Assembly (NCBI RefSeq): GCF_003984625.1
Contig: NZ_RWKH01000005.1
Coordinates: forward strand, 62,001-126,000
DNA: 64,000 nt
Source: Variovorax sp. DXTD-1
GTDB taxonomy: Bacteria > Pseudomonadota > Gammaproteobacteria > Burkholderiales > Burkholderiaceae_C
Reading direction: 5' to 3'
Positions within the stretch are counted from its first letter, which is position 1; each line of letters starts with the position of its first letter. The notes beneath the pieces are model-generated. The model was not told where the DNA came from and searched no databases. It was given only the letters and a program-made list of their open reading frames with translations. Of this stretch, positions 11,698 through 44,203 are shown one piece after another. The position numbers and the translations under genes were made by a program.

Positions 11698-13506
11698 TCA
11701 ATCGCGCGGGCGTATCACCTGCAGGTCGTGGTGGGCGCCGGCATGCAGCCGTGCCACGTCGGCCGCGCGCCGCGTGAGCACCGCGCGCTGGTTGATGTAG
11801 CCCTTGTCGGTGATCTCGCCCGCATCGAGGCTCGGCGCCTCTGTAAGCACCAGCGCACGCGTGGGGCACTGAGAAGACCCCGCGCCCTCATCGCGCAGCG
11901 CGCGCAGCACGTCCGCAATTCGCGCGGCGAGTGCCTGCGGCGCAGCCTGGGGAGCGGCAAACACCAGCATGCCGATCTCGTCGCTGTCGTGGCCGGTGAG
12001 CACCACGTCCTGCGCATGCGGCGCCAGCATCGACACCAGCTTGACGCGCAGGGTACCCACCGACACCCAGGTGCCGCTCGAGAGCTTGAAGTCTTCGGCC
12101 ACGCGGCCGTTGAAGACCACGCCGCGTTCGGGCCGGCCGGCGTCGGTCAGGTAGCCCGCATCGCCGATGCGGTAGTAGCCCTCTTCATCGAACGCCTCCG
12201 CCGTTTCGCGCGGCGCATGGCGGTAGCCCGGAAACACCGAGACGCCCTTGACGCGCATCTCGAGCTTCTGCCCGTTGGGCACGAACTTGAGCTCGAGCCC
12301 CGGCAGCGGCGCGCCAATGCAGCCCGCCCCGTCGAGCTTCCAGTGCGCCGAGGTGATGGCGGGCGAAGTCTCGGTCGCTCCCCACGAGGTGGTGAGCCAC
12401 AGCGGCCGCTCGGGCCGCACGCGCTTGGCCACCGCTTCGAGCCGCTGCCAGGTCGAGGGCGCGAGCGCCGCCGCCGCATAGAAGGCCAGCCGCAGCCGCG
12501 AGAACACCTCGGCCGCGAGTGCATCGTCGGTTTCGAAAAACGGCAGCAGCATGTCGAACCCGCGCGGCACGTTGAACAGCAGCGTGGGCTTTACCTCGCG
12601 CAGGTTGCGCACGGTCTTTTCGATGAGCCCCGGCGCAGGCCGGCCCTCGTCGATGTACAGCGCGCCGCCGTGGCACAGCACCATGTTCAGGTTGTGGTTG
12701 GCGCCGAAGGTGTGGCTCCAGGGCAGCCAGTCGACCAGCACCGGTTTTTCCTGCGTGAGGAAGCGCCAGGTCTGCGTCATCATCTGCTGATTGGCACACA
12801 GCATGCGGTGCGTGTTGATCACCACCTTCGGCTTGCCCGTGGAACCCGAGGTCAGCAGGTACTTGGCGTGGGTGTCGGGCAGCACGGCCTGGTAGGCCTG
12901 CATCACGGCCGGTGTTTCGCTGGCTTCGAGAAACTGCGCAACGGGCAGGGCGCCGGCGTGTGCATCGGCATTGCGGCTGAACACCGCCACCGCCTCCACG
13001 CCGCAGCCCGCGAGCGCACCGCCGTACACCTTGGCATCCGATGCATAGATCAATGCCGGTTGCAGCGCCTGCAGCATGCCGTGCAGCCGCGACGGATCTT
13101 TTGCCATGCGCGAATAGGCGCTCGAGAGCGAGCACGCCGTGCGGCCGATGTGCATGGCCGCGAGCATCAGCACCGCATGGTCGATCGAATTATCCGAAAG
13201 GATCGCGATGGGTTTGCCCTCGGGCAGCTTCAGGTCGAGCAGCGCCTGCGCCACCGCACCCACGGCCTGGCGCAGCGCGCGGTAGTCGAGCCTGCGCCAG
13301 CCTTCGCCGCTCTCGTCGCGCTCCGCAAAGGCCAGCGCCTCGGGCGTTTCGCGCGCCCAGCGCTCGATCCATTCGCCGATGCAGCGCGCATAGGGCCGCA
13401 GGGCCACCGGTGAACGCAGCGCGAAGGAGCCGTCGTCGAAGTCGATGCGCACCGTGCGGGGCGGGGCAATCTGGCTCTCGTCCAGGAGGAAGTCGTCGTC
13501 GGTCAT
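11698..13506 (-). CDS. acyl-CoA synthetase of the feruloyl-CoA synthetase group
   Basis: 602 residues, an adenylate-forming enzyme: it activates a carboxylic acid with ATP and joins it to CoA. The ATP-binding P-loop is in YLLTSGSTGKPKVVINTH, the second core motif in LTTSWGATETSPAI, and the hinge/adenine motif in YYRIGDAGYLTDAGRPERGV. The N-terminal part (RYARCIGEWIERWA, FAERDESGEGWRRLDYR) and the length match feruloyl-CoA synthases used in hydroxycinnamate breakdown. No vanillin-forming hydratase/aldolase is adjacent. It is followed on the same strand (upstream) by the dehydrogenase, Bug and BKACE genes, so it may belong to that pathway. Confidence 0.8.
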   Translation of the reverse strand: MTDDDFLLDESQIAPPRTVRIDFDDGSFALRSPVALRPYARCIGEWIERWARETPEALAFAERDESGEGWRRLDYRALRQAVGAVAQALLDLKLPEGKPIAILSDNSIDHAVLMLAAMHIGRTACSLSSAYSRMAKDPSRLHGMLQALQPALIYASDAKVYGGALAGCGVEAVAVFSRNADAHAGALPVAQFLEASETPAVMQAYQAVLPDTHAKYLLTSGSTGKPKVVINTHRMLCANQQMMTQTWRFLTQEKPVLVDWLPWSHTFGANHNLNMVLCHGGALYIDEGRPAPGLIEKTVRNLREVKPTLLFNVPRGFDMLLPFFETDDALAAEVFSRLRLAFYAAAALAPSTWQRLEAVAKRVRPERPLWLTTSWGATETSPAITSAHWKLDGAGCIGAPLPGLELKFVPNGQKLEMRVKGVSVFPGYRHAPRETAEAFDEEGYYRIGDAGYLTDAGRPERGVVFNGRVAEDFKLSSGTWVSVGTLRVKLVSMLAPHAQDVVLTGHDSDEIGMLVFAAPQAAPQALAARIADVLRALRDEGAGSSQCPTRALVLTEAPSLDAGEITDKGYINQRAVLTRRAADVARLHAGAHHDLQVIRPRD

Positions 13507-13524
13507 ATGCGGTCGCTGCCGGGC

Positions 13525-13598
13525 CGCCCCAAAGCGAACCGCGCCTCCCCCACGGGGGGTGGCGAAGCACACGAAGTGGCAAGCCGGGGGGCAGTCAT
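13525..13598 (+). repeat. short GC-rich palindromic repeat (ACACGAAGTG family), copy 1
   Basis: Pattern: GGGCCGCCCC, a spacer, a CCCCC/GGGGG hairpin, ACACGAAGTG, then GGGGGGC. It fills the gap between the acyl-CoA synthetase start and the dehydrogenase stop. The same order of blocks is found near 18281, 21160, 29948 (reverse) and 43381. Confidence 0.7.
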
Positions 13599-18264: not shown

Positions 18265-18280
18265 GTCAGTGGCCTCCCGA

Positions 18281-18353
18281 CGGGCCGCCCCTAGGGAGGC
18301 CATTGCCCCCTCGGGAGGCAGCGAATACACGAAGTGATGAGCGTGGGGGCATC
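18281..18353 (+). repeat. ACACGAAGTG-family repeat, copy 2
   Basis: Between livF and livG: GGGCCGCCCCTAGG, a CCCCCTCGGGAGG hairpin, then ACACGAAGTG and GTGGGGGC, in the same order as in the other copies. It forms a second stem-loop in what is otherwise a tight operon, which may affect relative expression of the two ATPases. Confidence 0.7.
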
Positions 18354-19104: not shown

Positions 19105-19112
19105 AGTCTTGC

Positions 19113-19228
19113 TCCCTCTCCCCTCGGGGAGAGGGCTGGGGTGAGGGCACTGGGCGGTAGAAAGCGCAGGGCGACGGGCAGGACCGCAGCCCTCACCCTA
19201 GCCCTCTCCCGCTTGCGGGAGAGGGGAC
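19113..19228. repeat. CCCTCTCCCC-type paired palindrome, copy 1
   Basis: Two short hairpins face each other: CCCTCTCCCC-TCGG-GGAGAGGG followed by CTGGGGTGAGGG on the left, and CCCTCACCCTAGCCCTCTCC with its own inverted end on the right. The outer halves pair with each other across about 45 bases of spacer. Similar units lie at 23246-23364 and 31522-31626, always between genes of one operon. Confidence 0.75.
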
Positions 19229-21159: not shown

Positions 21160-21246
21160 CCGCGGAACCGGCTTCGCCGGGCCGCCGGTGTCGCCCCCTC
21201 GAGGGGGGAGTCGAGCTACACGAAGTGAGCGAGGGACGGGGGTGGG
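21160..21246 (+). repeat. ACACGAAGTG-family repeat, copy 3
   Basis: Fills the gap between livH and the binding-protein gene: GCGGAACCGGCTTCGCCGGG, a CCCCCTCGAGGGGGG hairpin, ACACGAAGTG and a GGGGGTG end. The GGAACCGGCTT(T/C)GCCGGG part is shared with the reverse copy near 29948-30042. Confidence 0.7.
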
Positions 21247-29949: not shown

Positions 29950-30042
29950 CCCCCAGTCTTCGCGCACTTCGTGTCGCTTCGCCAACCCCCTTCCAGGGGG
30001 CAACGCCAGCGGCCCGGCAAAGCCGGTTCCGCGGCGTTCCCC
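29948..30042 (-). repeat. ACACGAAGTG-family repeat, copy 4 (reverse orientation)
   Basis: Between boxC and boxB. Read on the minus strand it gives CCGCGGAACCGGCTTTGCCG, a CCCCCTGGAAGGGGG hairpin, then ACACGAAGTG and a GGGGGTC end, matching copy 3 in its longer left part. It is the only reverse-oriented copy in the window. Confidence 0.7.
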
Positions 30043-31512: not shown

Positions 31513-31521
31513 TTGGGTATT

Positions 31522-31626
31522 ACTCCCTCTCCCCGCGGGGAGAGGGCAGGGGTGAGGGTAGGCGGCGTCCCCACGACAAGCTGCTGCCCCCTCACCCTGA
31601 CCCTCTCCCCAAGGGGCGAGGGAAAG
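31522..31626. repeat. CCCTCTCCCC-type paired palindrome, copy 3
   Basis: Between boxB and boxA: CCCTCTCCCC-GCGG-GGAGAGGGCAGGGGTGAGGG shown as blocks on the left, and CCCTCACCCTGACCCTCTCC with AAGGGGCGAGGG on the right, about 30 bases apart. It is the best-preserved of the three copies and ends some 10 bases before the boxA start, so its hairpin lies near the boxA ribosome-binding site. Confidence 0.75.
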
Positions 31627-42060: not shown

Positions 42061-42115
42061 ACCCTGAGGTCAACCCCGATTGAGCGGCGTGGGATGCGGC
42101 ATTACGCTCGATGCC

Positions 42116-44203
42116 ATGCTCGCTCCCAACATTCCCCAGATCCGCCTCTACCAGGACTGGCTGCGCGACCAGCGCGGCCTCTCGTTCGACACCTACGACG
42201 CGCTGTGGCGCTGGTCAGTGACTGACCTGGACGCCTTCTGGCAGAGCATCTGGGACTACATGGGCATGTGGTCGCCCACGCCGCACACCGCGGTGCTGGG
42301 CGAAGCGCGCATGCCCGGCGCCACGTGGTTCCCGGGCGCGCAGGTCAACTACGCGCGCGAGGTGCTGCGCCATGCCGATGCGGCGCATGCGGCCGGCATG
42401 CCCGCCATCGTGAGCGACAACGAGCTCGGCGAAGTGCGCGAGATGTCATGGCCCGAGCTGCGCCGCCAAGTGGCTTCGGTTGCGCTCACGCTGCGCTCGC
42501 TTGGCGTGCGGCGCGGAGACCGCGTGGCCGCCTACATGCCCAACGTGCCCGAAACCATGGTGGCGTTTCTCGCATGCTCGAGCATCGGCGCAGTGTGGAG
42601 CGTGTGCGCGCCCGACATGGGCACGGCCGCCGTGGTCGACCGCTTTCGCCAGATCGAACCCACGCTGCTGATTGCCGCCGACGGCGTGCACTACGGCGCC
42701 AAGCCCATCGACCGCAGCGCCGTGGTGCAAGAGCTACGCGGCGCACTGCCCAGCGTGCAGAAGCTGCTGCTGCTCAGAACGCCGTGTGCCGCGCAACAGC
42801 TTGATGCCGATGTCGGCTGGCAAGACGCCATTGCGCGCAACGATGCCGAGGTGGCCGCCTTCGAGCCCGAGTGGCTGCCCTTCGACCACCCGATCTGGAT
42901 CGTCTATTCGAGCGGCACCACCGGCCTGCCCAAGCCCATCGTGCACGGGCAGGGCGGCATCATCATGACGATGTATGCCTGCGGGCTGCACAACGACGTG
43001 GGCGCGAGCTACGGTGCCAACAACTTCGGCGAGCGCTTCCACTGGTACAGCTCCACTGGTTGGGTGATGTGGAACTGCCAGCTCGGCGGGCTGGCCTTCG
43101 GCTCGACCATCGTCATCTACGACGGCCACCCGGCCGGCAGCAAGGAGAAGCCCGACTGGGCCGTGCTGTGGCGCTTTGTCGCCAAGCACCGCATCACCTT
43201 CTTCGGCGCCGGCGCGGCCTACTTCACCAACTGCATGAAGGCCGGCGTGGTGGCGGCCGAATGCGGAGACCTCACGCGCGTGCGCGCCCTGGGCAGCACT
43301 GGCTCGCCATTGTCGGAAGAAGTGCAGCGCTGGGGTACGGAGCAGCTGCTGGCCGCTAGAGAAGCGCTCGGACCAACGAGCGCCGCGCCGGGCCGCCCCA
43401 AGCAAGCGAGCGGCCCCCTCGGGGGGCAGCGAGGACACGAAGTGCCGGAGCGTGGGGGCGACATATGGTGGTGCAACATTTCAGGCGGTACCGATTTCTG
43501 CGGCGCGTTCGTCGGCGGCAACCGCGAGCTGCCCGAGGTGCCCGGCCAGATGCAGTGCCGGCAGATCGGCCATTCGGTCGAGGCATGGAACGAAGACGGC
43601 AAGCCCGTCATCGGCGAAGTGGGCGAGCTGGTCTGTACCAAGGCCATTCCGTCGATGCCGCTGTACTTCTGGGGCGACGAGGGCAATGCGCGCTACCTGT
43701 CGAGCTACTTCGACACCTACCCCGGCGTGTGGCGCCACGGCGACTGGATCAAGATCGGCGAAGACGGCGGCTGCATCATCTACGGCCGCAGCGACGCCAC
43801 CATCAACCGCCAGGGCCTGCGCATGGGCACCAGCGAGATCTACAGCGCCGTCGAGGGCCTGCCGGAGGTGCTCGACTCCATGGTGGTCGATCTCGAATAC
43901 CTCGGCCGCGAAAGCTACATGCCGCTGTTCGTGGTGCTGCGCCCCGGCGTGTCGCTGGACAACGCCATGCGCGCGAAGATCAACGACGCCATCAAGACAT
44001 CGCTTTCGCCGCGCTTTGCGCCCAACGACATCTTCCAGGTGGACGAAATCCCGCGCACGCTTTCGGGCAAGAAGCAGGAGCTGCCGATCAAGAAGCTGCT
44101 GCTCGGCCAGCCGATTGAAAAAGTGGTCAACCGTGAAGCAATGGCCAACCCCGGCAGTCTCGACTGGTACGTGGCCTTTGCCGCGCAGCGTGCCTCCGCA
44201 TAA
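42116..44203 (+). CDS. acetoacetyl-CoA synthetase carrying an in-frame repeat insertion
   Basis: 695 residues (family about 650). Activates acetoacetate with ATP and CoA. P-loop VYSSGTTGLPKPIVHGQGG, GWVMWNCQLGGLAFGSTIV, CNISGGTDFCGAF, GDWIKIGEDGGCIIYGRSDA and the C-terminal Lys region GKKQELPIKKLL are in order. Residues about 413-449 (DNA 43354-43463) are foreign: this stretch is the ACACGAAGTG-family intergenic repeat, translated in frame, just before the WWCNISGGTDF active-site strand. It lies opposite the fahA operon, whose product acetoacetate would be its substrate. Start: the ATG at 42116; a TTG at 42080 is possible. Confidence 0.85.
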   Translation: MLAPNIPQIRLYQDWLRDQRGLSFDTYDALWRWSVTDLDAFWQSIWDYMGMWSPTPHTAVLGEARMPGATWFPGAQVNYAREVLRHADAAHAAGMPAIVSDNELGEVREMSWPELRRQVASVALTLRSLGVRRGDRVAAYMPNVPETMVAFLACSSIGAVWSVCAPDMGTAAVVDRFRQIEPTLLIAADGVHYGAKPIDRSAVVQELRGALPSVQKLLLLRTPCAAQQLDADVGWQDAIARNDAEVAAFEPEWLPFDHPIWIVYSSGTTGLPKPIVHGQGGIIMTMYACGLHNDVGASYGANNFGERFHWYSSTGWVMWNCQLGGLAFGSTIVIYDGHPAGSKEKPDWAVLWRFVAKHRITFFGAGAAYFTNCMKAGVVAAECGDLTRVRALGSTGSPLSEEVQRWGTEQLLAAREALGPTSAAPGRPKQASGPLGGQRGHEVPERGGDIWWCNISGGTDFCGAFVGGNRELPEVPGQMQCRQIGHSVEAWNEDGKPVIGEVGELVCTKAIPSMPLYFWGDEGNARYLSSYFDTYPGVWRHGDWIKIGEDGGCIIYGRSDATINRQGLRMGTSEIYSAVEGLPEVLDSMVVDLEYLGRESYMPLFVVLRPGVSLDNAMRAKINDAIKTSLSPRFAPNDIFQVDEIPRTLSGKKQELPIKKLLLGQPIEKVVNREAMANPGSLDWYVAFAAQRASA
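43381..43463 (+). repeat. ACACGAAGTG-family repeat, copy 5, within a coding sequence
   Basis: GGGCCGCCCCAAGC, a CCCCCTCGGGGGG hairpin, then GACACGAAGTG and GTGGGGGC: the same blocks as the intergenic copies, but here inside the acetoacetyl-CoA synthetase gene. Its length preserves the frame and it contains no stop codon. Surrounding codons are normal for the gene. Confidence 0.8.

Follow-up and report, generated by a model that had tools for sequence, protein, structure and literature searches.

How does a repeat that also lies between genes come to be read as part of a core enzyme, and what becomes of the enzyme once it is there? The question is raised by a forward-strand open reading frame at 42080–44203 of the 64,000-nucleotide stretch of DNA analysed here (the window). 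This frame encodes an acetoacetate–CoA ligase (acetoacetyl-CoA synthetase, AACS): it is matched over its full length by the family model NF002937 (residues 18–704; 947 bits against a cut-off of 639) and also by TIGR01217 (673 bits, cut-off 521), and the solved structure 4WD1 is its best match both by structure (Z 46.9) and by sequence. Homology favours a start codon near position 42116. Overall, we find it very probable, as the best explanation of the locus, that a mobile repeat, here called element A, entered a tolerated loop of AACS in frame, with the function of the enzyme most likely kept.

An insert ahead of the WWCNISGGTDF strand

Direct comparison with the nearest relatives, L011 and L012, places the insert at 43357–43465 on the forward strand, a segment of 109 nt where both relatives have 16 nt. 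The empty site of L012 reads CTGCTGGCCGC, then the 16 nt GGGCGCCGACAGCGTG, then TGGTGG, and the window has the same CTGCTGGCCGC (43346–43356) and TGGTGG on either side of its 109 nt. The first-pass annotation had set the insert at 43354–43463; it does lie there, with exact borders that the empty relatives shift slightly. The net gain is 93 nt, or 31 codons, giving a loop of 46 residues versus 15 in the nearest relatives, so that the protein is indeed longer than normal, by 31 residues and not by the approximately 36 first proposed. As had been read from the outset, the frame runs uninterrupted across the repeat with neither stop nor frameshift, and the codons of the conserved WWCNISGGTDF strand (43466–43498, forward strand) directly follow the insert on its 3′ side. 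A GCGCTCG/CGAGCGC inverted repeat, read from the sequence, occupies the 5′ end of the insert (43364–43383, forward strand), and the hairpin-forming core of element A lies at 43375–43459 in the sense orientation. With a net length divisible by three and no in-frame stop, this copy would be translated, as about 31 extra Gly/Pro/Ser-rich residues that include the stretches EALGPTSAAPGRPK and QASGPLGGQR.

That the segment is a repeat within a coding sequence, as claimed, is borne out by a 72.5-bit match to our covariance model R1 (G000:C44:105375–105459, where G000 is the window's genome and contig position equals window position plus 62000) and by its closest DNA match, a copy in the biotin carboxylase gene of the same genome that is 94% identical over 82 nt (E 1.1e-27). 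Among 60 genus-mates (Variovorax) searched, element A is absent from the AACS loop in every gene with a readable loop. We therefore regard the segment as a repeat inserted in frame, and reject the alternative raised with the original claim, namely that related strains would carry the same residues as conserved non-repeat sequence: the loop of the genus-mates has 15 residues. One genus-mate (G047/L010) has an unrelated AACS loop of 30 residues. In a tree of 161 AACS proteins built without the loop, the window gene groups, with good support, with L011 and L012, neither of which has the insert, and these sequences place the gain of the insert within the genus, and recently. A plasmid search using the AACS gene returned distant matches only.

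Element A and its copies

The short word ACACGAAGTG occurs exactly five times in the window, at 13569, 18327, 21218, 29965 (reverse strand) and 43435. By itself it is weakly above chance, as 12 of 100 shuffles reach five matches at one mismatch or fewer, and the repeat claim thus rests on the whole of element A. Besides the copy in AACS, the window holds an intergenic copy between ABC-transporter-like open reading frames (18267–18350, forward strand; R1 73.6 bits), a weaker and essentially intergenic copy (13506–13592, forward strand; R1 47.3 bits) and two degenerate, intergenic relatives that contain ACACGAAGTG, one on the forward strand (21160–21240, from sequence and open reading frames) and one on the reverse strand (29950–30030, from sequence). 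Our census of the genome, which is based on searches, gives seven strong copies (62–74 bits across the 84 positions of the covariance model) and a few weak ones. The view that the repeat is otherwise intergenic holds in so far as intergenic copies exist, but four of the seven strong copies sit in genes, the three besides AACS being in frame in recQ, in the mccA-like biotin carboxylase gene (MCC) and in purL. The twelve genomes with an AACS insert carry between 6 and 86 copies each.

Element A spans approximately 84 nt and has three stems: a variable outer stem whose loop, GCCGGGCCGCCCCAA, hardly varies, an invariant CCCCC-TC-GGGGG hairpin, and a further hairpin around CACACGAAGTG. In the 30 copies compared, compensatory changes in the variable stems fall on both sides in 70 cells, versus 25.8 ± 5.2 in shuffled and 10–32 in slid controls, for stems that were named by hand before being tested, so that the structure is not fully independent of the sequences used to test it. 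The consensus that RNAalifold itself derives is a different fold without covariation. The paired changes argue that a folded form is either selected or passed through during copying. A known RNA family is rejected as the identity of element A, for an Rfam search at gathering score gave a single tRNA across the window and no match at seven loci that bear inserts. Likewise rejected is selection of element A as an open frame, because its frames are stop-free in 0.786 of cases versus 0.807 in first-order Markov shuffles; with frames not unusually open, its translatability appears to be a by-product of a GC-rich sequence.

Comparison with orthologues, proposed at the outset for fixing the borders and finding any target duplication, was carried out at the filled and empty pairs of AACS, RecQ, MCC and PurL. 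The net gains over the empty relatives are 93 nt in AACS, 87 nt in MCC, 87 nt in RecQ and 81 nt in PurL, all multiples of three. No target-site duplication was seen at any of the four, a short target stretch being replaced instead, with the proviso that the empty sites come from related species in which small later changes could hide a duplication. The borders of element A differ between copies, with no constant ends at the four pairs, and since neither duplications nor constant ends are seen, transposition is a putative mechanism only. We suggest that, in the Comamonadaceae, element A acts as a small mobile repeat, non-autonomous and hairpin-forming, that would spread by transposition-like copying, and that in the lineage of the window's genome one of the resident copies entered AACS, replacing some 16 nt of a short surface turn.

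The other in-frame copies have histories of their own. The purL and biotin carboxylase inserts are absent from all six genus-mates checked. The recQ insert is common to the window's genome, G025 and G013 only, most others having a plain KSTP-type turn, and this patchy sharing points to within-genus recombination (allele exchange) or repeated loss. The three recQ inserts (L204, L345 and L346) are near-identical and lie in the zinc-binding region, in three Variovorax that are not nearest relatives, and the insert is missing from the closest relatives of the window's genome. In the recQ of G040 (L347), the turn is enlarged at the same place by a different, proline-rich stretch.

Elsewhere in the Comamonadaceae, roughly ten additional genes carry element A in frame, and it occurs in either orientation. 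Of 60 further copies, 29 passed a crude screen of frame composition for location within an open reading frame, several of these being doubtful because of a wrong strand or a position at the start of a gene. Host genes identified by Pfam or NCBIfam encode MoaE, GlnD, biotin carboxylase, a class I tRNA synthetase (valyl by sequence), PutA, MoeA, FdhD, MurD, a serine/threonine protein kinase and a P-type ATPase. Sites are reused across genera in purL (L206, L235, L279, L304, L306), biotin carboxylase (L205, L240, L257) and valyl-tRNA synthetase (L262, L273). The biotin carboxylase loop of L240 contains a family C-like repeat followed by two tandem copies of element A, all in frame. At the same purL site, L320 has a short tandem peptide repeat, MPTDMPVNMPVNMPMD, so that slippage may also enlarge this loop.

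A recurrent landing site and the fate of the enzyme

The AACS loop receives repeats far beyond the window. In a non-random sample of 146 AACS genes, 35 hold repeats in the loop, drawn from four unrelated families, and three have a match elsewhere; counted as motif matches, 81 lie inside the loop versus 3 outside. In 80 AACS genes from an evenly drawn sample of the family, the loop holds element A in nine and family C in four, and most loops are empty. Tandem copies of element A fill the loop of L088, L097 and L200. Family B (ATTCCCGC...GCGGGAAT) occupies it in L085, L102 and L110, family C (TTCGACAGGCTCAGC-like) in L096, L136, L160, L162 and L196, and family D (CCCTCTCCC...GGGAGAGGG) in L111. 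The family D repeat (CCCTCTCCCC-GGGGAGAGGG-GGGTGAGGG, palindromic) also has two copies in the window, at 19106–19156 and 31517–31567, and a D-type motif is present in the purL of L313. Two of the three matches outside the loop belong to a second AACS site, GDE/RYLS, where a reversed in-frame element A (PIVQPPGGEAAHPPRGSGSDLGRPGVEPG) is found in two Variovorax genomes (L061 and L059, the latter also appearing as L034). On the AACS tree, parsimony gives a minimum of 25 gains and losses for any insert, 5 for C, 3 for B, 1 for D and 19 for A, part of the last possibly reflecting inheritance with loss or allele exchange. The four unrelated families together with the window copy nevertheless require at least five separate events.

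Could the AACS repeats instead descend from one old insertion in the Comamonadaceae, kept in some lineages and lost in others, reshaped by gene conversion, and regained in the window by cross-genus recombination? We judge this unlikely. AACS copies of several genera are often closer to one another than to the sampled copies of their own genomes, as with G213 and G118 at 0.95, so that some of the shared presence may be descent or recombination and not new insertion, and the distribution of the recQ insert, in genomes that are not nearest to one another, indicates that inserts can spread or vanish by recombination. The window copy, however, belongs to the subtype resident in its host genome, not to those seen in the other AACS genes: its similarity is 0.85 to the biotin carboxylase copy of the same genome and at most 0.68 to AACS copies of other genera, which points to a source in the resident pool. 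Moreover, families B, C and D cannot be one insertion, being unrelated repeats at the same loop, and several clades contain an empty gene next to a closely related filled sister (L143/L194, L132/L088, L127/L136).

We therefore return to repeated insertion of mobile repeats. The simplest cause of the loop's reuse is tolerance on the part of the protein, given that repeats without relation to one another converge on it; a DNA target preference for the loop is also possible. A mobile palindromic repeat would insert widely, and its genic copies would survive only where they keep the frame and fall in tolerant loops, insertions elsewhere being mostly purged; the AACS loop would be hit repeatedly because it is one of the few places that tolerate extra residues. 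The structural model is consistent with such tolerance. In the AlphaFold model of the window AACS (mean pLDDT 84.6, good over most of the remainder), residues 422–446 fall below 50, and the loop lies between the helix at 401–417 and the WWCNI-bearing strand at 451–455, at a place where the solved 4WD1 has just a turn. The insert is thus predicted to form a disordered loop between helix and β-strand, ahead of the SGGTD motif.

The AACS gene, judged by its codons, stays under purifying selection, with a dN/dS to the nearest relatives of about 0.09 on both sides of the insert, most of the underlying divergence possibly predating the insertion. Downstream of the insert, 8 of the 27 changed codons on the window branch are nonsynonymous, versus 1 of 25 on the two sister branches (p = 0.025); the eight amino-acid changes are spread out and not clustered near the insert. 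This excess may reflect chance, slight relaxation or adjustment. The insertion might instead be adaptive, the repeat-encoded residues altering activity, regulation or partner binding under positive selection, and both the downstream excess and the repeated filling of the same loop in different lineages would fit. We hold this to be improbable, as the inserted peptides derive from unrelated repeats and have unrelated sequences, that of the window being predicted as disordered; most Comamonadaceae AACS loops are empty; the downstream excess is weak and unclustered with respect to the insert; and the frames of element A are no more open than composition predicts.

Still less probable is that the insertion disabled the enzyme and left an early pseudogene, open by chance. 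The proximity of the insert to the active-site strand and the downstream counts (8 nonsynonymous versus 19 synonymous, against 1 versus 24 in the relatives) would suit such a loss, but there is no stop or frameshift, the eight changes are far under the neutral ratio (dN/dS near 0.09), and in many distant genera otherwise conserved genes retain inserts at this loop. An assembly or contamination artefact, the other doubt raised with the original claim, is extremely improbable even for a 5.25-Mb draft of 92 contigs in which repeats can cause misjoins, because both junctions fall within a single open gene of a 235-kb contig, with the flanks on either side matching the same relatives, and because dozens of independent assemblies show element A in this loop and the recQ insert recurs in two other Variovorax genomes. 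Tolerated insertion is the reading that we retain, and the enzyme most likely keeps its function despite the insert.

Element A among known repeat systems

In-frame palindromic repeats as such are already known. In the open-access literature we found no description of Comamonadaceae as a host group of coding repeats, of the element A family, or of a shared AACS landing loop reused by several families. Repetitive extragenic palindromes (REPs) with a GTAG/CGTC tag are found, in several bacteria, in open reading frames for replication, repair and other proteins, where they encode 20–30 residues or more (PMC3733652), and element A is like them a palindromic repeat that decorates open reading frames; the main text of that study names no Variovorax, Acidovorax, Delftia or Burkholderia. 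Such REPs are defined as palindromes of 20–40 nt bearing the tag (PMC3733652), whereas the element A consensus, taken from alignment A1, has 84 nt and no tag. They are further marked by a RAYT gene flanked by repeats, and the one Y1_Tnp (RAYT-like) transposase gene found in the window's genome (L119, contig C1) has no copies of element A in its flanks. We therefore reject a RAYT-driven REP as the identity of element A. L119 lies between methyltransferase-like and glutamate synthase-like genes.

The 107-bp Correia/NEMIS and the ERIC/RU elements are small non-autonomous repeats that likewise fuse in frame with genes (PMC2229807, PMC2759123). Terminal inverted repeats, TA ends and target duplications characterise them; for element A, by contrast, no target-site duplication of the kind expected of a miniature inverted-repeat element (MITE) was seen at the four filled and empty pairs. 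By the features tested, element A is thus neither a GTAG/CGTC REP nor a typical MITE.

More broadly, whether selfish repeats supply proteins with usable sequence can be tested directly on the AACS loop, and filled and empty genes in close relatives, with at least four unrelated families in a known fold, amount to a natural experiment on what a loop will tolerate. Where stretches such as AGPPQGAKAPSGGSEPHEVGERGG appear in proteins of the Comamonadaceae, they derive from repeats, and both alignment and annotation will be misled by them. We would tentatively go further: the Comamonadaceae may hold a standing supply of unrelated hairpin repeats that re-enter the same core-enzyme loops (AACS, PurL, biotin carboxylase, RecQ, ValRS), such that loop evolution there would be largely repeat-fed, possibly with a site bias at the DNA level.

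Coding palindromes have previously been considered peculiar to Rickettsia and a small number of other groups, whereas here they occur in free-living bacteria of soil and water. The Rickettsia palindromic elements (RPE; Ogata et al. 2000, 2002) and the Wolbachia coding palindromes lie in frame in conserved protein genes and also between genes (as described in PMC2229807 and PMC10969869), and element A resembles RPE in being a small, structured, palindromic repeat, both inter- and intragenic, that adds a few dozen fold-compatible residues. The likeness is one of behaviour: element A is multicopy between and within genes, in frame, absent from orthologues and foldable into stem-loops. It differs from RPE in being approximately 84 nt long and not 105–146 nt, and in its host, a free-living, GC-rich Betaproteobacterium. 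Also unlike RPE, in the hosts of element A one and the same protein loop is reused by several unrelated repeat families.
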